Source of the DNA: Sipunculus nudus
Lineage: Eukaryota; Annelida; Sipuncula; Golfingiida; Sipunculidae
Assembly (NCBI GenBank): GCA_026874595.1
Contig: CM049313.1
Coordinates: forward strand, 56,811,159-56,875,158
DNA: 64,000 bases
Direction of reading: 5' to 3'
A program made the translations under genes and the position numbers. Under the pieces are notes generated by a model that worked only from the letters and a program-made list of their open reading frames with translations, made no database searches and was not told the origin of the DNA. Below are positions 6,101-60,950 of this stretch, in pieces; positions within the stretch are counted from its first letter, which is position 1; the number at the start of each line of letters is the position of its first letter.

Positions 6101-6635
6101 CAGTAGTTTGGTAAACATATATTTATTATTTGATTATCACCAGTTAACAGGGCCATTTCCTCTTAGCTTTTCAAATGCTTATGTATAAAAAATAAATAAA
6201 TAAGTGTATTTTGCATTTGCTAAAATTTTTTAAATTTCAGCTGAGCAACCTGACTCATGTGTCCCCTGTTAAATATTACAGTATATTATTGAGAGATAAA
6301 TTTCAAGTTTTCAGATTGCAAGCATCAGAAATGATTTATTTTTCATACTAAACAAATTAAGACACCTGCCCAAGAATATCAAATTATTTACTAACTTTTT
6401 GAAATGACCTTTGAACTTCTAACATTAAACATTTCAAAATTGGTTACTGAATTTGAATTGAATAAAATGATATGAGAGGAGCAGAATTGATGTTTGGTGA
6501 GAGTTAATGAGTTTAACTTGAACTGAAATTGTAAGTTTTGAATATTAATGATTTATTGGCTTTTGTTCAATATATTAATTTTCTGCTTCAGTTTAACAGC
6601 ACTTTTTGATTTTATTATTGTGTGATGTATTTTAG
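3180..6635. other. No gene seen; intergenic or upstream intron of the LDLa gene
   Basis: This 3.4-kb AT-rich stretch holds no open frame with coding character. The only recognisable item is a terminal fragment of the dispersed element family at about 4128-4165, which contains the 'gacccataggtcccttgtt' sequence in minus orientation. An upstream exon of the LDLa gene, perhaps encoding a signal peptide, must lie here or before the window; I could not find one ending in the required phase. Confidence 0.5.
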
Positions 6636-6758
6636 CTGGAGAGTCCTGTCCTGGATTCCGGCACATGGAATGTTCCAATAGCCAAAAATGCTATAGTAGT
6701 TATGAGCAGTGCAATGGTGAGAAATACTGTCCTGATGGCGACGATGAGAAGGGATGCA
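6636..6758 (+). CDS. LDL-receptor class A domain exon of a type I membrane protein (first visible exon)
   Basis: The exon starts after a 'ttttag' acceptor and ends at the donor GTAGGT. It carries two leading bases, 40 codons and one trailing base. It encodes one complete LDLa module with six cysteines (ESC, MEC, QKC, EQC, KYC, KGC). The acidic calcium-binding motif CPDGDDEKGC lies at its end, and CNGEKYC precedes it. LDLa modules are extracellular, disulfide-bonded and calcium-dependent ligand-binding units. The trailing A joins the GT of the exon at 10288 to make serine, so the phase is preserved. A single LDLa followed at once by a membrane segment and a PY-motif tail resembles LDLRAD3/LDLRAD4-type proteins; that assignment is inference. 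The start codon and signal peptide are not visible. Confidence 0.9.
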
Positions 6759-6869
6759 GTAGGTCACTGATTTTTTACTCAAGCACAGGAGAGCACAATA
6801 AATGAAATACCTTTATAAAGACAAGATAAAACATCTCATACAGATGGCAAATATAGTGATATCTGTGAA

Positions 6870-7115
6870 ATATGATATAAACCATAGTTTATAAAAGAAA
6901 TATGATATAAACCATATTTATAAAAGAAATATGATATAATAACCATTTTTATAAAAGAAATATGTTATAAACCATATTTATTAAAGAAATATGATATATT
7001 AAGTATACTTATAAAAGAAATATGATATTACCTACATTTATAAAAGAAATATGATATAACCCACTTTTATAGAAGAAATAGGATGTAAGTCATATTTATA
7101 AAAGAAATAGGATAT
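6870..7115. repeat. AT-rich tandem repeat, about 29-32 bp unit, about 8 copies
   Basis: Degenerate copies of 'tataaaagaaatatgatat' followed by a 'aaccatatt'-like segment run head to tail just downstream of the LDLa exon, inside its intron. Copies diverge toward the right, where 'gatat' becomes 'ggatgt' or 'ggatat'. Confidence 0.85.
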
Positions 7116-7589
7116 TTTGAAAATTTAAAAGCAATAAAACATATGATGAACTTTCAGTAACATGGAAAATATTGCCCTTTGCACATCTAACATTTTGGGA
7201 AGATTTACTTTTCAAATGAAATCAGGTATGGTAGGAATTCATACGACATTTTATTCTCTTATATGCATGATTTGTATAAATTATTTTCTATTTGAATACA
7301 GAAGTTATTTTATGACTAAAAAATAACTAAAGTTGAAGATTCAAGTTGTGGGCTGGGACATCTTGCAGCAAACATAGGAACTACTCTTGTATATGCCATC
7401 TGTAAAATAGAGGTGTATATTAAGGGCAGGCATTAATTTAATTAAGACTAAGATGTTAAGATAATTTGATCTTACTGTGATCCTCTTTATCTTATTTTAT
7501 GTAAACAAAATGATGACTAATTTAAACTAAAAAATTTGAATAGAAAAAAGACTGAGAAAGTTTAAATTTCTTCAAGTATTAACATATAT

Positions 7590-7613
7590 CAAGGAGTTTA
7601 CAGGGATGGAGTA
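7590..7613 (+). repeat. Left half of a 24-bp perfect inverted repeat
   Basis: The 24 bases at 7590-7613 (core 'ggagtttacagggatgga') are the exact reverse complement of 8698-8721. The two copies lie just outside the coding exons of the small nested minus-strand gene, about 1.1 kb apart. They could be terminal repeats of a mobile element or of a captured segment. I see no clear target-site duplication. Confidence 0.85.
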
Positions 7614-7711
7614 TCAAGTGAGAGTCTGGCCGTGACTGGGGTCATAAAACTTGCTGCTCTAAGGCACAAAGAGAAGCTGCTGATAAGCCCGGTGCTAATT
7701 GATACAGAGCG

Positions 7712-7719
7712 TTACAGAC
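7712..7719 (-). CDS. Nested small gene, exon 3 (end of the coding region and stop)
   Basis: On the minus strand an acceptor 'cctgtgtttcag' precedes GT CTG TAA. With the single G carried over from exon 2, this reads Gly-Leu-stop. Only eight coding bases lie in this exon. The rest, down to about 7590, would be 3' untranslated sequence, and the 24-bp inverted repeat lies within or beside it. The phase fit supports the join, but so short a terminal coding exon needs transcript evidence. Confidence 0.5.
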
Positions 7720-8028
7720 CTGAAACACAGGAATAAGCATACCCCCAAAATTTAATTGCTTTAAAAATTTTTCACATATATACATTATTAATAAAAATAA
7801 TAATTTCTCTACTTACCTGTTAGTTATTAATAATATAAATATGATAGCTTTTATAATACTTATCTGATAATAAAATTTAATGGTGAGGTAATATGGGGTT
7901 ATTAAAATATATCCAACCTTTCAAAATAAGAACTGATATGCCATGTTATATCTAATATTTATTGACATGAAATGATAATAAATAACCTATAATAAATTGA
8001 ATGGCATCAAGGCTAAAATAAATCTCAC

Positions 8029-8137
8029 CTGTTACAAGTAAAATTATATCTCTGTAATTTAATTTATCCTGTGGGTACTGCTTATAGATTCTGTCCTGAT
8101 CACACAATCGGCATTTATTGCAGCCCATTCTGGGGTA
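8029..8137 (-). CDS. Nested small gene, exon 2 (cysteine-rich)
   Basis: This minus-strand exon lies between a strong acceptor (an A/T-rich tract ending 'tctcag') and the donor ACAG|GTGAGA. It holds 36 codons plus one base. It begins Tyr-Pro-Arg-Met-Gly and carries closely spaced cysteines in GCNKCRLCDQD, followed by a charged stretch and a hydrophobic end DIILLVT. The three cysteines could belong to a small metal site, but I do not recognise the family. The frame joins exon 1 in phase 0. Confidence 0.6.
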
Positions 8138-8315
8138 CTGAGAAAAAAAAAAAATACTGAAAGTTATAAGTCATCCGGTCATAAGCGTCAAAATTTTTTT
8201 TATCGACGGAATACTATAATACATGGCTAATTATTAATATAAGTCAGAAGTGTAGGAACTGATGGAATTTTTTATAATTCCCAAGTTATTCAGGGAAAGC
8301 AAGGTTTACACTTAC

Positions 8316-8462
8316 CAGTCGCCTGTAATGAATCAAGGCAGAAAATGATGTAGAGTGACCGCATCTATCCCAAAATTGATCAAGTGATTCCTCAACACGA
8401 GACCTCTCTAGATATATTTGTTGCGCATAATTCTTGACAAAACAAATTATTTGCGCATTCAT
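8316..8462 (-). CDS. Nested small gene of unknown family, exon 1 (start codon to donor)
   Basis: The minus strand opens with ATG at 8462 and runs 49 codons to the strong donor CTG|GTAAGT. The frame is open a little further upstream but has no other ATG there. Exons 1, 2 and 3 join in phases 0 and 1 to give about 87 residues. Exon 1 is hydrophilic and mostly helical in character (NYAQQIYLERSRVEESLDQ), then contains WDRCGH and ends HYRRL. There is no signal peptide or membrane segment, so the product is probably intracellular. The gene is nested antisense in the intron between the LDLa exon and the transmembrane exon. Its upstream DNA is richer in CpG than its surroundings, as expected of a promoter. 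I do not recognise the protein. Confidence 0.6.
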
Positions 8463-8479
8463 AATTCCGGTCAATGTTA

Positions 8480-8697
8480 TTCCAGTGATTTACTGCTCAG
8501 TTACTGGATATATCGCTCTCCGCTTCACAAGCTACAGCAGACCGCAGAAGTAACATCTAGCAGGCTCACTTTATCAAAGTCCGTGCTGACCGCTGTGCCT
8601 GACACCGCGGCACAATAGAGTTAATTGGCTAATCATGTCTTAATTGCAATTAGCGCACGACTGACACTCGCGACCTGGCAGGGCTTTTGACAGTTGT
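8480..8697 (-). promoter_or_regulatory. CpG-enriched candidate promoter and 5' untranslated region of the nested gene
   Basis: This stretch has many CpG dinucleotides ('tatatcgctctccgc', 'gacaccgcggcac', 'agcgcacgac', 'actcgcgacc') in an otherwise CpG-poor, AT-rich neighbourhood, directly upstream of the minus-strand ATG at 8462. Enrichment just here suggests a germline-unmethylated start region. No TATA box or initiator can be fixed. Confidence 0.4.
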
Positions 8698-8721
8698 TAC
8701 TCCATCCCTGTAAACTCCTTG
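8698..8721 (-). repeat. Right half of a 24-bp perfect inverted repeat
   Basis: Exact reverse complement of 7590-7613; see that entry. It lies immediately upstream of the CpG-rich region of the nested gene. Confidence 0.85.
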
Positions 8722-10287
8722 CACATAGGTATGGCCAAGATGAAATGTATTGCTGTATTACATATTGTTTGAGCTACACCAAATTATATATATATACATA
8801 TATCTGTGCAACAATTTTAGGAAAGGTGCAGATCAACTATAAGTTTAATCTACTTTATCAAACACCTTTATGGATGATCTTTTTTAGTTGCTTTTACACA
8901 CTGACATATTACTCCCGTATGGTTCACATTTTTTCTGATAGATGCCTCTGCAATCGCCCCTTTTGTGAGAAAATGTCAAATGTGGATTTACAGAAAAGTA
9001 TGTTAAGGCCAAAAATGAATTAAGGTATGGAACTCAGGCAGCACATGCATCAATTTAAAACACCCGCATCAACAATTTTTATTCTGATTTTCAATTGAAA
9101 CTTTCAATTTTTTGGCTGCAGCCCCTCAGACATTTCTTTCAAGAAGATAAATCCATACAATTTCCTTTGTTATGTAGTGCTTTTACTTGTTTAACAAAAT
9201 CAATCTGTTATTATCATGCTTTTTCACTTATCATTTGACATTTTTATCGAAACATTCCTAAAAATTAAAAATATAAAACGCGCCTGCCCACATTGATTTC
9301 TGAAAAAATGTCTGAGAACCATAACTTTTTTATTTTGGTCTAAATTAGACACTGTTTGCCAGACAGATAAAACCTTTGCTGACATGGTCCTACCTGTAGT
9401 AGATTTATAAGATGTGAACCTCAGCAACTCAGACCAACACTTTGACACAACTACCATGGACCAAGACTTGCAGGAAGATTTGGAAAGTCTAAAACACTGC
9501 CAGCTGATCATTTACCTCAAAATTCACATGTGAATTTTGTACATGTATAATGTTTAAGGATTTAAGCTAGCATTCCATATCAGTGTATGCAGTACATGCG
9601 CATTTACAGCACATCTGTATAAAGCTAGAAAACATCTGCCTGTGATTAGGTTAATGCATAATACCATGTGTGAGTGTTAGATATTTGGCAAAACTAGGTG
9701 TATAATAATATTAATATAGAGCTGCATCAGTAGAGATGTCATCTGCCAGTAGAATAATATATTATGGTCATTAAAGTTTGGAATTTAGCCATCAGTTACC
9801 ATGCACATGCATTTTCAAGCACTACCCTGAGCAGTTAAAAAAATGCTGCAGACGCATGTATGGAAACACTTGTACAAGTTTTATTTCAGAATAGTTAATA
9901 GAATACTCCCTTTTTTACATCAACCTAATGATAAATTTAAATTGTTTAGTTTCAAATGAGCCATATAACTATACTACAGCAATAGCTTTCTATGCAAGTG
10001 TCATGTATGTATTCATTCTGTTTAGTAACTATGTATGTCCTGTTGTTTGATTCTGTTGTTACTGTATTACTGTACTGTAACTGTTATCAGTCTCTATATG
10101 TATGATGTATGATATATGTTTGTTACCTTTGATGTTTTCTTTTCAATATAAAAAAAACAAAAAAAAAAAAACACTTGTACAGAAAAGAATGTGTCTGATT
10201 CCTGTAAAAAAGTACTGCATATGTACCACATTTGTACTTCATTACAGATATATGCATCAAATATGCAACCTTTGCTTATCTTTGCAG
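8722..10287. other. Intron sequence, no confident gene
   Basis: This part of the LDLa-gene intron is mostly featureless. At about 9340-9510 the plus strand reads like a decayed coding fragment (TFADMVLPVVDL, a stop, then acidic and glutamine-rich text), with no splice sites or extension that I can support. The minus-strand frame at 9224-9511 overlaps the same segment. Confidence 0.4.
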
Positions 10288-26225: not shown

Positions 26226-28748
26226 ATAACAAGGGACCTATGGGTCACGATGCTCAGCTGTTATATATGATAAAAAATATTATTTAGAAATGAGGCATAT
26301 GCTGGTTTTGTGTGGTAATAAATATAAGCTGTATTATGAGTTGTTGTTGTTTAGCTTATGTATGATTTTGATAGTACCTTTGGAGACAGGGAAGAGGATT
26401 GATTTCATTTATTTTATTAACAAATGGAGTACTATTGTCACACAGATTTTGACTTGGCCATATAACTTATAAGCAGAACATATAATATAAGAGTTTAACT
26501 ATTTATTAAAAAAATTACAAATATTGTCCCAAATATAATTTTTATTAAAAATCATAAGAGAATCATATGATTTTTTAAAATGAAATATAACTGATATGAT
26601 TATTAAAATAATATTAAAGAATATATTCATGAATGCATTCATGAATACATTTTGAAAGTATTTGCACGAGTATTCATATACTTTCATTTTTACCTGAATT
26701 CCCATTCTTTATGCAAGAAATTTTATAATGGAGTACATAATCATATTCGTATTTAAATACAATTACAAAGTATTTGCACCATGTCTGGTATTTATTCAGT
26801 TTTCACCAAACAATGATTTTGAGAATCCAGAATATACAAAATTCACACATTTAAATAATGATCATAAGTACCTGGTATTATGGCTTTTATTTATATTAAA
26901 AAATAACTGTAAAAAATTCATTTTGGACTAATTTCACATCAATGTACACACTAGACACAGTAGGAATCTAGATTAATATTATCAACTGCATCTTTGTCTA
27001 TCATTAATTTCCTTCATATAATCCCTAATGATTAGTAATGAATAATATGATTTACTTCTTTATCATTAAAAATGAACAGAAAAATGCCATAGGTGACTGC
27101 ATGGTGTTATTTATATTATTTGACATTCTACCCATCGATACAAGATTCTTATATCATCAGTAACTGCAAGTTAATTTCCTGTTATTATTAACTAACAAAT
27201 TTCTTTTCTATTTTTCTTTAATTTGTTATTAAAAACCAAGAAAAATTTATTAATTTATTGTTTATTGTTATGTTGTTGGTTAAAACTACTAGATGAGTTG
27301 GGTTGGACACCTGGATCAACTGTGGCTGGCCATAAGCTGCCTGGATTCTCGCCTCAAGCGTGCATAATTTGATGAAAGGTCAACAAGGTCAACATACAGG
27401 TGACTCAAGAGGGGCTGGAGAGAGCCAAAGACTGACAGGGTCTCATAAAAAATATTAATAAAAGCTACAATATTTGGCCAATTTCTTTCAGCTTTCTAAA
27501 TTAAAAGCTGAAATCCTTATGTGTGCATGATATGAAAATTATATCAACAGTGCTCTCAGGAAACAAACGTGCCATGATCACAGTTGGGCAAAATTTAAAG
27601 TACTAATTTTATATTTATACTAATAACTTATAAAATTTGAAAAATTCATAACTAATTTTGGGTATTCAATTGAATCTTGATTAAATAATGTTACATCCCT
27701 GACAATAAAATATCTAGCTTCAGCAATGCCCTTGTTAAGGGAGTAAATATATTTCTTGATTTTTTACAAAGTGCATTATGTTTGGGCCCATAACTTAAAA
27801 AATACACAATACTGACATCATTTCTGGCATGTGCATAGCGAATGTATAGGAAAATATGTATATTATATATGATCAAAGTCAGATCAGTGGTTTTGATATT
27901 AGGCAGTCTTAAAGAGTAACAATGAGTTTTTTATGGAAAAATGAAGTTTTTCATTGATATCTCGAAGGAATTAAGTCCTAGTGACCAAATTCTTGGCATG
28001 ATAGGGGATTTTGGAGAAATCTAACTGTATGCCAAATTTAAGGAACTTAGAGCTGTAGCTCGGGAGTTGAGCTCTAGCAAACTGCATAACACTAGCAATA
28101 TGTGACATGGTGCTTGAAAACTTGAATAAAATCTACAGTTTTTGATCAACTGGTTTCAAATTTTTGGTGTTAACAGTTGAAATGCTAACAAAAACATGCT
28201 GTGAAAATTAAATCCACAGCAGTTACAGCAAAAAAAACGTGCCATGGTCAAAATTGGACAAAATTTAAGGTACCAATTTTTTATTTTTGCTAATATTTTA
28301 AAAAATTTAAAAGATTTTGATCTAATTTTGGGTATACAATTTAATTTTGATTAATAAAAGTAATATTACTGGAAAAAAAGTGCTTAGCTTTAACAAGTTT
28401 TGTGTTAAGTGATAAAATTTCTTTCCTGATTATTTACAAAATGCATTATGTTTGGGCCCATAACTTTTTTAAATTATATAATACAGACCTAATTTCTGGC
28501 ATGTACATAGGAATTATATTGAGGATTATTTATAGGAAATATGAGGAAAAACAGATGAGTGGTTTTGATATTAGGCAGTCCTGAAGTGTGAAAATAGGTT
28601 TTTAATAAAAAATTGAGGTTTTTCCTTAATTTCTCAAAGGAATGAAGTCGCAAAGACCCAGTTTTCGGCTTGGTAGGAGATCTTGGGGACATCTAACATT
28701 ATGCTGAATTTTGGATTCCTAGGTCTTACGGTTTCAAAACATGCCACA
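26226..28748 (+). mobile_element. Right arm of the 2.5-kb inverted repeat; fuller copy of the element
   Basis: Near-identical reverse complement of 1-2504. Here the element keeps its left terminus 'aacaagggacctatgggtcac...gctcagctg' (26228-26262). Its right side runs through two diverged internal units, a (GGAC)n array (28752-28796) and a hairpin terminus (28812-28842), so the complete copy is probably about 2.6 kb (26226 to about 28846). No transposase is encoded. It lies in the intron between exons 31627-32184 and 23654-23775 of the voltage-sensor gene. Confidence 0.8.
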
Positions 28749-46869: not shown

Positions 46870-48300
46870 GTCCTTAATTTAAATGGGCCTTATCAAGTAT
46901 GTTGAATTAACTGGAAAATAGCACCTTCTCTTTGAATTAAATTGGTACCTGCCAAAATATTGCCCTGAATATTGGCTTAATTACACCCTGTACATGAGTA
47001 TTTAAAAAAAAAACAGTGTGCTGTGATGGTTCTACTGGGAAACTTTCGTATAAAGCAAAAGTGAACTGATAGTGTGAAAGATTAGGCATAACATTGTTCC
47101 TTATTATATCCCTTTAAAAAACAGAAAAGAATATATAGCTAATTTGTAAGAAAAAAAGACCAACACACATACATCTGAAAACATAACAGGTAATTACCTC
47201 ATACATAATGGCACCCTTTTTTACTTAACTGTTTAAATGTCAATTTATATAACTTTACTAGATTAATTAATCTTATTAATATTGACAATAAGGGAGCAGG
47301 AAAATAAGCCATTATTAGAAAGTAGAAATGTGACATGCTAATCCCCTCCCCTTTCAACGACAAAACAAACTTGATCATACACAATAATAAACTTATAGAT
47401 CAACAGAAACATACACACAACTACTCTCCATCAAGTATAGGATACATCAACAGTCCACATACTCAATCACTACCAGTGTATTCATATTGTTAAGCAAGGC
47501 AAGCAGGAATATTTAAGGTCTGGTTGATAAAGCTAGCTACTAACTATAAAAGTGATCTGTTACAGCTGAATGGAGTTTTGATTACATATACAGTATGACG
47601 TCATTAATTTGCCATTTCACCAAATTTGCCTGAAGCAAAATAATGCAGAAGTCCTTTCATGCTGTTTTTCACCTGTTTCACTTGAAAAACTCACTTGCAT
47701 TCAGCCATCATGTCCAGTTCTGTCAATATACTGTGATTGGTTCCACATTTGAGAAATAGAAATTTTGCAATTTTACAGAGATTTAATCTGGAGCAATATA
47801 ATGCCTATCCTTTTACACTATCAGTTCACTTTTGCTTTATACAAAAGTTTCCCAGCAAAGCCATACCATCACACAATCTGAATTATATATGTTGCATACA
47901 GTGTTTAACACCTTGTTATGGCACTGCGTGTTTGTAAACACTGTCCACATGATTATGTTTACCTTAACAAGGCTGCATGACCAGAGGTCTAATGGTGAGC
48001 CACAAATAAAAAACAATGTTTCAGCAAGCAGGTACATGTAATAAATACATTTCTGGGGCCAAGTCAGTTAGGGCATCTCCTGATTGGCCGGTGTTGTGGC
48101 TCAGTGATGCACAGAATCCCAAGTGCTGTGTTCATTTTGACACCTGTGACTGCGCTCAGACCACTGTTTTTAACACTTGTTTACAGGAATAAGCAAACAG
48201 TTTCAGGGCAATGTTTTGGCAGGTACAAATTTATTTTAAAGGGAAGAAGCTATTTTTTGTGTTAATTCAACACACTTTATGGGTGATTTGGCCCCTTTAT
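46870..48300. mobile_element. Fold-back element with long imperfect inverted arms
   Basis: The left arm (about 46870-47090) is mirrored by the right arm (about 47795-48300). For example 'actttcgtataaagcaaaag' at 47043 pairs with 'cttttgctttatacaaaagt' at 47830, and 'ggtacctgccaaaatattgccc' pairs with 'gggcaatgttttggcaggtac'. The right arm contains extra sequence. No protein is encoded. Part of the right arm recurs at 58500-58690. Confidence 0.7.
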
Positions 48301-49599: not shown

Positions 49600-51180
49600 T
49601 CATAAGATAAGATAAGATAAGATATAGTTTATTGCTATATATATGTAATAAAATCATCACATACAATAGTATTTGGCTTGACTGGCTTGCTTAAACAAAC
49701 ACATTAAACAAGAAATAATAAAATAAAATTGTGTATAAAAAAAAAGACGTATGACTAAGAATGTTTGACTAGATTATTGTGCTGCAAGTGATATATTTAA
49801 TTCTCAAACGGCTGGCGCATAGGTGCTATTTTGAGTTCTTTTGGAATTGCCTGATAGTATCCTATAGCGAACCCCCAATTTCATTTTTTTTAAACAAATA
49901 GTGTGCAGGATGACTATAGTCTTCAATAATGTCGTTTGCTTTCTTCAACAATCGTGTTTGAAATAAGGAGTCAACTGTGGGTTAAGGAACCCCAATGATC
50001 CTCTCAGCTGTTCTAACTATCCTAGAAAGACGGTTCCTTTCCTCGACCGTGATACTGCCTCCCCATACAGTGACTGACAACGTCAGGACTCCCTGAATTA
50101 CCGCCCGATTAAACTTTAATAAAATCGGTTGACTGAGCCCGAAATCTTTTAGGTTCCTTAGAAAGAATAAATGTTTTTGTGCCTTCTTTATGCAGTAATT
50201 AACATTTTTCACCCACTTCAAATCAGAAGAAATAAAAATTCCTAAAATTTAAAACAGTCAACAATTTCAACCTCGGAGCCTTCAATTACAGAGGGTACTA
50301 TTTCAGTTTTCTTCCATCTAAAATCAGTTATCATCTCCTTGGTTTTCTTTACATTTAACTCCAGATTATTTTCAGAGCACCACAAAGTTAAAGTTTTAAT
50401 TTCATTGCGGTAAACACTTTCTTTATTTCACCGGATGAGCCCAAAAACTGTTGTGTCATCTGTACAATTTTGGTGAAAGCACATAACCTTGGGGTGCTCC
50501 AGTGTTTAAGACCAATTTTTCGGAAATAATGTTACCAATCTTAACCACTTGAGGCTGATTTGTTTAAAAGTCTAAGATCCAGTTACACATGTTAATATTA
50601 AGACCCAGTTTTGATAGTTTTCGATTAATTTATGGGGAAGGATAGTGTTAAAGGCTGAGCTGAAATCGATGAATAAAACCCTTGCATAGGTAGATTCTTG
50701 TAAGTCGAGATGTTTTAAAATACGGTAAAGTGTGAATGATACAGCATCATCTGTTGCTCAAAACTCTTGGCGATTACAGAAGTTAATGCAACAGGATGAT
50801 AGTCATTCAAACATGATGCATGAGATTTTTTCGGGACAGGAATAATCACTGATCGTTTGAAGAGCTCTGGCACAGTACACGATCGCAAGGACCAGTTAAA
50901 AAGAAGAGTGAGAACACCAGATATTTCATCGGCGAAAGTTCTTAACAGACACTGTGTGATACCATCAGGACCAGCCGCCTTGCGTATGTTTAAGCAGGCA
51001 AGAATTCTCTTGGTATCTAAAGTTTCTATAACAAATCGAGGCGGACCGTCACATGATGTTTTCTCAGATAGGGTTTCAGGCAAATCAAACCGAGCATAAA
51101 ATTTGTTTAAATTCATCAGGAAGATTCGGATCACCAGAGAGAGGGTTGATAATTTAAAAAATCTGATACATTTAAAACTT
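49600..51180 (-). pseudogene. 5'-truncated, decayed non-LTR retrotransposon (LINE), reverse-transcriptase remnant
   Basis: The minus strand reads as part of a Jockey/CR1/L2-type reverse transcriptase. At 50715-51134 it has KAAGPDGI, a block ending VIIPVPKK, then LNDYHPVALTSVIAKSFE. Around 50440-50475 the catalytic block appears as CTDDTTVFGLI, followed by a stop. At 49982-50221 the C-terminal region has KKAQKHLFFLRNLKDFG and VTVWGGSITVEERNRL. Frameshifts and stops separate these parts, so it is dead. The 3' end (low coordinates) closes with a TTATC pentamer array at 49601-49622, as in CR1/L2-like elements that end in short tandem repeats rather than poly(A). The clade is inferred by eye. Confidence 0.85.
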
Positions 51181-51954
51181 TCAATCTTTAGTTTACAGAT
51201 GTCATAAATGGATATTTTATGATGTAAAGTATCAAACTTTAGACTAATGATGCTAGATGCAATGACCTGTTACATGAAAGAGACACCAACAAGGTAACAG
51301 CACAAATGACTGTTCACTTGTGTGGAGGAGGCATCTTGTTCATTATGGTTTTATTTTTTTTTCAAATTATTTCCTTCCAGTGTATATCATGAATTTTAAA
51401 CCCTCAAGGCCCACAGAATGTCATTCAATTTTGATTACTCATCCAGGCAAGCTGAGAATGTGGGCAGTTAGTTGCATGACTATCAGGGATTCATTATTGC
51501 CAAGTGGTTTTCATATACTATACACTGGCATTATTTATCCTCTTTAACCTTACCCCACAGCAACACTCTCAACCATTAGTTCCTCAACTACCCCCACTGA
51601 TTCCTGTTGTCATGGTAATGGCATTAGAATGGGGTCATACTGTATAAAACATAAGAGTAAAGTTTTGGTCTAGAGATGAAAGGAGTGATCAAGCATTTAA
51701 GTCAGCCTAACCCGGGTAAACCAAACCAAGTAGCTTAGGCCTACTTGAGTCCCGGATTTGGACTTGGGTACTGATGTAGACCTGTATTATGATACATTTA
51801 AGCATTTATTCATGTTATTTTTTTTTAGCAAAATAAACATGTTCTTGCCTATTAAAGTGTCATGGTGCCCTTTCAACTCCATAACCAGATTCAATGTAAA
51901 GCCATAACGCCTTATTGTATAAATGTATGTAAAATAATATGTACCAGTTTCTGT
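51181..51954. other. Intron sequence, nothing recognised
   Basis: No exon, element end or tandem repeat that I can support. Confidence 0.4.
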
Positions 51955-59476: not shown

Positions 59477-60950
59477 CTGGACTAGCTCCAGAGGACAGTG
59501 ACACAGCAGGCCTGGTCCCTGGGCTGGATCAGCTCCAGAGGACAGTGACACAGCAGGTCAGGTCCCTGGGCTGGATCAGCTCCAGAGGACAGTGACACAG
59601 CAGGCCTGGTCCCTGGGCTGGATCAGCTCCAGAGGACAGTGACACAGCAGGTCAGGTCCCTGGGCTGGATCAGCTCCAGAGGACAGTGACACAGCAGGTC
59701 AGGTCCCTGGGCTGGATCAGCTCCAGAGGACAGTGACACAGCAGGTCAGGTCCCTGGGCTGGATCAGCTCCAGAGGACAGTGACACAGCAGGTCAGGTCC
59801 CTGGGCTGGATCAGCTCCAGAGGACAGTGACACAGCAGGTCAGGTCCCTGGGCTGGATCAGCTCCAGAGGACAGTGACACAGCAGGCCTGGTCCCTGGGC
59901 TGGATCAGCTCCAGAGGACAGTGACACAGCAGGTCAGGTCCCTGGGCTGGATCAGCTCCAGAGGACAGTGACACAGCAGGTCAGGTCCCAGGGCTGGATC
60001 AGCTCCAGAGGACAGTGACACAGCAGGCCTGGTCCCTGGGCTGGATCAGCTCCAGAGGACAGTGACACAGCAGGTCAGGTCCCTGGGCTGGATCAGCTCC
60101 AGAGGACAGTGACACAGCAGGCCTGGTCCCTGGGCTGGATCAGCTCCAGAGGACAGTGACACAGCAGGTCAGGTCCCTGGGCTGGATCAGCTCCAGAGGA
60201 CAGTGACACAGCAGGTCAGGTCCCTGGGCTGGATCAGCTCCAGAGGACAGTGACACAGCAGGTCAGGTCCCTGGGCTGGATCAGCTCCAGGGGACAGTGA
60301 CACAGCAGGTCAGGTCCCTGGGCTGGATCAGCTCCAGGGGACAGTGACACAGCAGGTCAGGTCCCTGGGCTGGATCAGCTCCAGGGGACAGTGACACAGC
60401 TGGTCAGGTACCTGGGCTGGATCAGCTCCAGGGGACAGTGACACAGCTGGTCAGGTCCCTGGGCTGGATCAGCTCCAGAGGACAGTGACACAGCAGGTCA
60501 GGTCCCTGGGCTGGATCAGCTCCAGGGGACAGTGACACAGCAGGTCAGGTCCCTGGGCTGGATCAGCTCCAGGGGACAGTGACACAGCTGGTCAGGTACC
60601 TGGGCTGGATTAGCTCCAGAGGACAGTGACACAGCAGGTCAGGTCCCTGGGCTTGATCAGCTCCAGGGGACAGTGACACAGCTGGTCAGGTCCCTGGGCT
60701 GGATCAGCTCCAGGGGACAGTGACACAGCAGGTCAGGTCCCTGGGCTGGATCAGCTCCAGGAGACAGTGACACAGCTGGTCAGGTACCTGGGCTGGATTA
60801 GCTCCAGGGGACAGTGACACAGCTGGCCAGGTACCTTGGCTGGATTAGCTCCAGCGGACAGCGATGCAGCTGGTCAGGTACCTGGGCTGTATTAGCTTCA
60901 GGGGACAGTGACACAGCTGACCTGGTACCAGGGCTTGATTAGCTCCAGGG
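59477..60950. repeat. 47-bp minisatellite, about 31 copies
   Basis: The unit contains 'ctggatcagctccagagg' then 'acagtgacacagcaggtcag' then 'gtccctggg'. Most left copies are nearly identical. Two versions alternate there (GCAGGCCTGG and GCAGGTCAGG) in the order A B A B B B B B A B B A B A B B B. From about 60285 rightward, copies change to 'aggggacag' and 'cagctgg', and the last few decay. The GC content is far above its surroundings. It lies in the intron between the S1 and S2 exons of the voltage-sensor gene. It has no spacers, so it is not a CRISPR array. Confidence 0.95.

Follow-up and report, generated by a model that had tools for sequence, protein, structure and literature searches.

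A probable internally deleted copy of a P-superfamily transposon, antisense to a putative LDL-receptor class A gene in Sipunculus nudus

Features of the locus

The window analyzed here, a 64-kb stretch of DNA on contig C8 of the 1.43-Gb genome, contains a compact unit at positions 7590-8721 that is bounded by a perfect inverted repeat of 24 nt. The two arms, at 7590-7613 and 8698-8721, pair exactly as the first-pass annotation had reported, and when extended to 31 nt they remain 94% identical. The annotation had also held that chance does not explain such a match, and simulation agrees: when 64-kb sequences were generated 40 times from a first-order Markov model, inverted repeats within 1.5 kb reached at most 16 nt, with a mean of the maxima of 13.9. 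The real window holds one perfect inverted pair longer than 24 nt (28 nt, 47048-47842), plus runs of TA that reach 25 nt. That longer pair has its arms at 47048-47075 and 47815-47842, which extend outwards with one mismatch and are flanked by GGGAAACTTTC and AAAAGTTTCCC, and it is probably a second short element with terminal inverted repeats (TIRs).

Immediately outside the unit, the left flank CATATAT (7583-7589) and the right flank CACATAG (8722-8728) agree at five of seven positions and form a candidate target duplication of 7 bp, imperfect and possibly eroded. The left terminal region, 7590-7711, is common to the short copies of a dispersed family described below, with 81-87% identity; like the arms and the flanks, it is assigned to neither strand.

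Between the ends, the minus strand carries an open frame of 87 residues in three exons, in agreement with the first description of the unit, and its start and splice sites are intact. Exon 1 (8316-8462) has 49 codons and is followed by an intron of 178 nt (8138-8315), exon 2 (8029-8137), a second intron of 309 nt (7720-8028) and an exon 3 of only a few nucleotides (7712-7719). The cysteine-rich motif MGCNKCRLCDQD is located in exon 2. Upstream of the frame on the same strand, the segment 8463-8721 is indeed CpG-rich, with an observed/expected ratio of 0.84 compared with 0.24 for the window, a value reached by 3.0% of 259-nt windows. This segment would be the 5' leader of the element and possibly its promoter side, and 249 of 258 aligned bases are the same in a long relative of the unit, L009.

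The unit sits downstream of a plus-strand exon at 6638-6760 that matches the LDL-receptor class A domain (PF00057) at 4.6e-5, with 24.0 bits against a cut-off of 24.1. Farther down, the translation read by eye suggests a transmembrane stretch and a tail with PPxY, with no Pfam support. Taken with the exon, this possible stretch and tail suggest that the element lies within an intron of an LDL-receptor class A gene, as in the earlier claim of an intron on the opposite strand. Also upstream of the element is a 29-bp AT-rich tandem repeat with about 8 copies (6867-7116).

A dispersed family with 7-bp target duplications

A DNA search of the genome with the whole unit, in which 40 of 753 candidates were scored, returned 77 matches, consisting of the unit itself, 39 other places and further pieces that nearly all lie beside those places. 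The 39 places match at 91-93% over the right part of the unit, about 8168-8721. When the genome was searched for the element ends, the left-end 42-mer was found 210 times (111 + 99) with up to 3 mismatches, and the reversed control was found 0 times. One of the 39 places (L002-L008 and L010-L041), L002, is the same copy as L009 and was handled apart as a long copy. Among the 38 further copies examined, 37 have both ends, the exception being L003, which has no left end under the threshold.

The 37 paired copies span 604-1,312 bp, and 36 of them are flanked by perfect 7-bp target duplications; in L035 six of the seven positions agree. The majority sequence of the duplications is GT-NNN-AC, with G in 21, T in 33, A in 33 and C in 26 of the 36 at positions 1, 2, 6 and 7, respectively; the flanks of the window copy are without the T at position 2. 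Pairwise divergence among the paired copies is low (mean 3.9%, median 3.2%), from which we infer a recent spread of the short copies. The window copy is more distant, with about 92% identity to three short copies in the right part and 83-86% in the left 122 nt, and its internal structure was seen in no other copy among the 40 of 753 candidates scored. With many copies that keep their TIRs and are without a complete transposase, the element classes as a MITE or other non-autonomous derivative, and the earlier suggestion of a mobile cassette is borne out by the TIRs, the many dispersed copies and the target duplications of the family.

Long relatives and assignment to the P superfamily

The long copy L009, on contig C10, is 3,972 bp in length, with matching TIRs and GTTGGAC on both sides. 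Its minus strand contains exons 1, 2 and 3, followed by a frame that matches PF21788, the GTP-binding insertion domain (4.9e-12), and PF21789, the RNase H C-terminal domain (1e-5). Compared with the Drosophila P transposase 6p5a, this 3' frame scores 1e-8 for the whole sequence, with two stretches at 0.0074 and 0.04. PF21787, the TNP-like RNase H N-terminal domain, was not reported among the L009 frames scanned.

A second relative on C12 (L075/L074) is 97.6% identical to L009 over 1,811 nt. It has one family end with 1 mismatch in 16 and the left flank ATATAAC; in the stretch read, no second end was found. This copy contains a 385-codon frame that matches PF21787 at 8.7e-20. For the same frame, phmmer listed no PDB sequence, not even the P transposase, at E<=10. 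There is a stop in its exon 3, and the stretch read has no substantial match to the 3' frame of L009. PF21787 is thus present in a copy of the same subfamily and absent from the window copy, and none of the copies read has a complete, intact transposase. In the genome as a whole there are 34 matches to PF21787, which would be other P-type genes or elements; some of their frames are 600-800 codons long, such as the 798-aa frame at C15:37479673.

On its transposase domains the family is placed in the P superfamily, because PF21787 in the C12 copy and PF21788 and PF21789 in L009 are all represented, spread over two copies. The TIRs, together with target duplications of 7 or 8 bp (7 bp in the paired copies here), are a further characteristic of this superfamily.

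The 87-codon frame as the beginning of a transposase gene

In both L009 and the C12 copy, the exons of the window frame run on into the P-superfamily transposase. Identity to L009 is 92% for exon 1 and 94% for exon 2 of the window, and the introns corresponding to 178 and 309 nt in the window measure 499 and 321 nt in L009. Exon 3 of the window begins with GTCTG (7715-7719), the first 5 nt of L009 exon 3, and then reads TAA from the left end of the element. From the right, the window tracks L009 as far as 7715, and from the left it tracks the short copies as far as 7711; the deletion junction is at 7714/7715. Since exon 3 consists of the parental GTCTG and a stop codon from the junction, the 87-aa product corresponds to the N-terminus of the transposase, cut at the junction. 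What had been annotated as a nested antisense micro-gene is therefore the start of the transposase gene that the element itself carries, cut off by an internal deletion.

A comparison of exons 1 and 2 between the window and L009 gives a dN/dS of 0.95 (15 nonsynonymous and 4 synonymous changes). With exact anchors, exon 1 measures 147 nt in 23 of 38 short-copy loci, and 138 nt with a stop in one, and none was recovered from 14; two of the 23 copies with a 147-nt exon contain stops. Summed over these 23 copies, which are not independent of each other, there are 11 nonsynonymous changes and 1 synonymous change relative to L009. At these small numbers the frame gives no sign of constraint, as would be expected of a passively moved copy.

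A ZAD-like motif at the transposase N-terminus

The spliced N-terminus of L009 matches zf-AD (ZAD) over residues 58-118 with an E value of 2.2e-5 and 25 bits, compared with a Pfam cut-off of 28. The unspliced exon 3 frame matches at 1.3e-3, and the gain on joining exons 1-3 supports the splice model. The zinc module, counted by eye, reads CRLC-x41-CPPC. No ZAD structure was found when the spliced N-terminus was compared with PDB sequences at E<=10; the only PDB matches, to L-amino acid deaminase at 0.56 and 0.71, are at chance level. An exon-wise search of the genome with zf-AD did not report the exons of the family. Because the score is below the cut-off, no ZAD is among the PDB matches and the genome search is silent, the cysteine motif is likely, though not proven, to be the first half of a ZAD-like domain. 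The first-pass annotation had not recognized this cysteine-rich protein, and the 87-aa protein of the window taken alone has no Pfam match at E<=1.

No match to THAP was found at E<=1 in the spliced L009 N-terminus, for which zf-AD was the only family listed (HMMER filters drop most weak matches). A study of mosquito P elements describes THAP as carried by all P proteins then known (PMC1562414), and two fly ZAD zinc-finger proteins are described as also bearing THAP (PMC9810180).

The single match of the exon-wise zf-AD search is another transposon-like locus, L076 (G000:C1:26727000-26731500), with a frame resembling the RAG1 N-terminus that contains RAG1_imp_bd (6.1e-9) and zf-AD (27-28 bits), and with a RING and DUF1280. 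The locus is reminiscent of N-RAG-TP of Aplysia, described as composed of RAG1 N-terminal-like sequence (PMC8355894). The similarity between the L076 module and the ZAD-like module of the family is weak, with 25% identity and an E value of 0.002 for one comparison.

A convergent second gene

The canonical P element is not known to carry more than one gene. On the plus strand of L009, a frame of 329 codons at 6141-7127 is convergent to the transposase, and searches of Pfam (E<=1) and PDB (E<=10) gave no match for it. A likeness of this second gene to the C-terminus of the P transposase, noticed by eye, was confirmed by no tool and is set aside. We compared ten further loci, of which six match the second gene and four match the transposase 3' frame: L064 and L065 match both, L068-L071 the second gene only, L066 and L067 the transposase only, and L072 and L073 neither. 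Relics of the second gene are thus present in 6 of 10 loci, 2 of those 6 with transposase matches as well. The relic frames scanned in L066 and L067 have no Pfam match at E<=0.1. Among the copies close to the subfamily of the window, both genes are seen in L009 only.

The versions of the second gene in L064 and L065 are broken, about 28-33% identical, and oriented convergently to a transposase relic. A DNA comparison of L064 with L009 gives a match at the exon-1 end only; the second protein can therefore be recognized there in translation but not in the DNA, which speaks for a past coding function of the second gene. In L068 the left end of the family lies upstream of the second gene. The L071 stretch measures 6.8 kb; its ends resemble those of the family, with 3 and 2 mismatches in 16, and it is flanked by ATTTTAT left and right. 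Clean ends are missing from L064, where end-like 16-mers carry 4 mismatches and the flanks do not match. An exon-1-like stretch of L064, at 8106-8243 (minus strand), is on the strand of the second gene and not on that of the transposase, which perhaps reflects rearrangement.

Comparison with known systems

Internally deleted copies are described as typical of P elements (PMC7776569). Deleted Drosophila P elements, including KP, are similar to the window copy in being non-autonomous and TIR-bounded and in keeping the ends and 5' exons of a multi-exon P-type transposase; they differ in their target duplication of 8 bp rather than 7 bp, and the family described here has a ZAD-like N-terminus with no THAP match and a truncation inside the zinc domain. 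The P-derived MITEs of Anopheles gambiae are likewise short and multi-copy and keep P-type ends, but their target duplications are of 8 bp (PMC1562414). Galileo, a member of the P superfamily, has mostly 7-bp target duplications with the consensus GTAGTAC or GTATTAC (PMC2775673, PMC4168063), near to GT-NNN-AC, but is described with long TIRs and a THAP domain, whereas those of the present family measure about 24-31 nt and its N-terminus has no THAP match. RAG-like transposons also carry two convergent genes per element, RAG1L and RAG2L (PMC7204232), and on the RAG-like side L076 too matches zf-AD; unlike them, the present family has P-type catalytic domains and a second protein without a Pfam match.

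The family is not filed as a canonical P element on these sequence features, since the canonical THAP-type element combines an N-terminal THAP domain with an 8-bp target duplication and we find a zf-AD-like match and 7 bp. Among the matches listed from the open-access literature (Repbase being outside the scope of the search), there was no P-type transposase with a ZAD or with a convergent second gene.

Interpretation and alternatives

We consider it about 95% probable that 7590-8721 represents a non-autonomous copy, shortened by internal deletion, of a P-superfamily transposon of the cut-and-paste type, inserted antisense to a host gene. The ends of the element would be the sites cut by the transposase. 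An internal deletion has joined exon 3 to the left end, with loss of the rest of the transposase gene, so that the 87-codon frame is the fossil start of that gene, comprising leader, exon 1 and exon 2. By analogy with known P-element biology, a transposase acting in trans would then have cut at the TIRs of the deleted copy, which would have been inserted antisense to the host gene with a 7-bp duplication. The window copy presumably moved in trans in this way and is probably inert now.

The frame could instead be expressed, its truncated 87-aa protein acting as a repressor in the manner of KP by competing for the element ends or by poisoning the dimer. Repressors such as KP, with 207 aa, are common products of small deleted P elements of Drosophila (PMC7776569), and the frame in the window is undamaged in its start and splice sites. 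We nevertheless regard this role, possible in principle, as unlikely, because the deletion cuts the zinc module in half: the ZAD-like domain ends after its first half and the second CxxC is missing. The lack of a Pfam match for the short protein also argues against it, as do the dN/dS of 0.95 and, in the short copies, the 11 nonsynonymous changes against 1 synonymous and the two exons with stops. A genuine host micro-gene on the antisense strand, captured by a transposon, would likewise account for an open frame whose splice sites are good and whose upstream region is CpG-rich. However, in L009 and the C12 copy these exons are collinear with the transposase gene of the element itself, and therefore no capture is needed; we reject this reading as very improbable. 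Even less probable, and also rejected, is a local inverted duplication whose repeats are not transposon ends. The imperfect target duplication of the window copy and the longer inverted repeat elsewhere in the window could be taken in its favour, but the left end is present 210 times in the genome, and perfect duplications lie outside the same ends in all but one of the paired copies. The element in the window is thus best regarded as an ordinary transposon relic, and annotating it as a gene of the host would be wrong.

The parent family looks unusual because it seemingly is without the usual DNA-binding domain and has a second gene, and it may be a modestly interesting variant, with a ZAD-like module where THAP is expected, 7-bp target duplications like those of Galileo, and a convergent second gene. 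More tentatively, with the balance of our judgement slightly against it, the family may represent a P-superfamily lineage not described before, with a ZAD-like module in place of THAP for end-binding or dimerizing and a conserved convergent second gene in an arrangement like that of RAG1L and RAG2L. If so, N-termini of the RAG1 type and P-type transposases would have the ZAD-like module in common across animal genomes. P-type transposases would also be more modular than the THAP-based picture implies if both the replacement of THAP and the second gene hold, and the second protein would then be a candidate cofactor of transposition.

Other features of the window

Three other features are located at a distance from the element. 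A 47-bp tandem repeat with 31 copies occupies 59477-60948, where GC content in 1-kb windows is 48-61% amid about 33%. The same translated stretches, recognized by eye, occur on opposite strands at about 726-2143 and 26698-27930, forming an inverted dispersed repeat. At 50718-51269, on the minus strand, a frame has by eye a motif that we take to be that of a LINE reverse transcriptase fragment.
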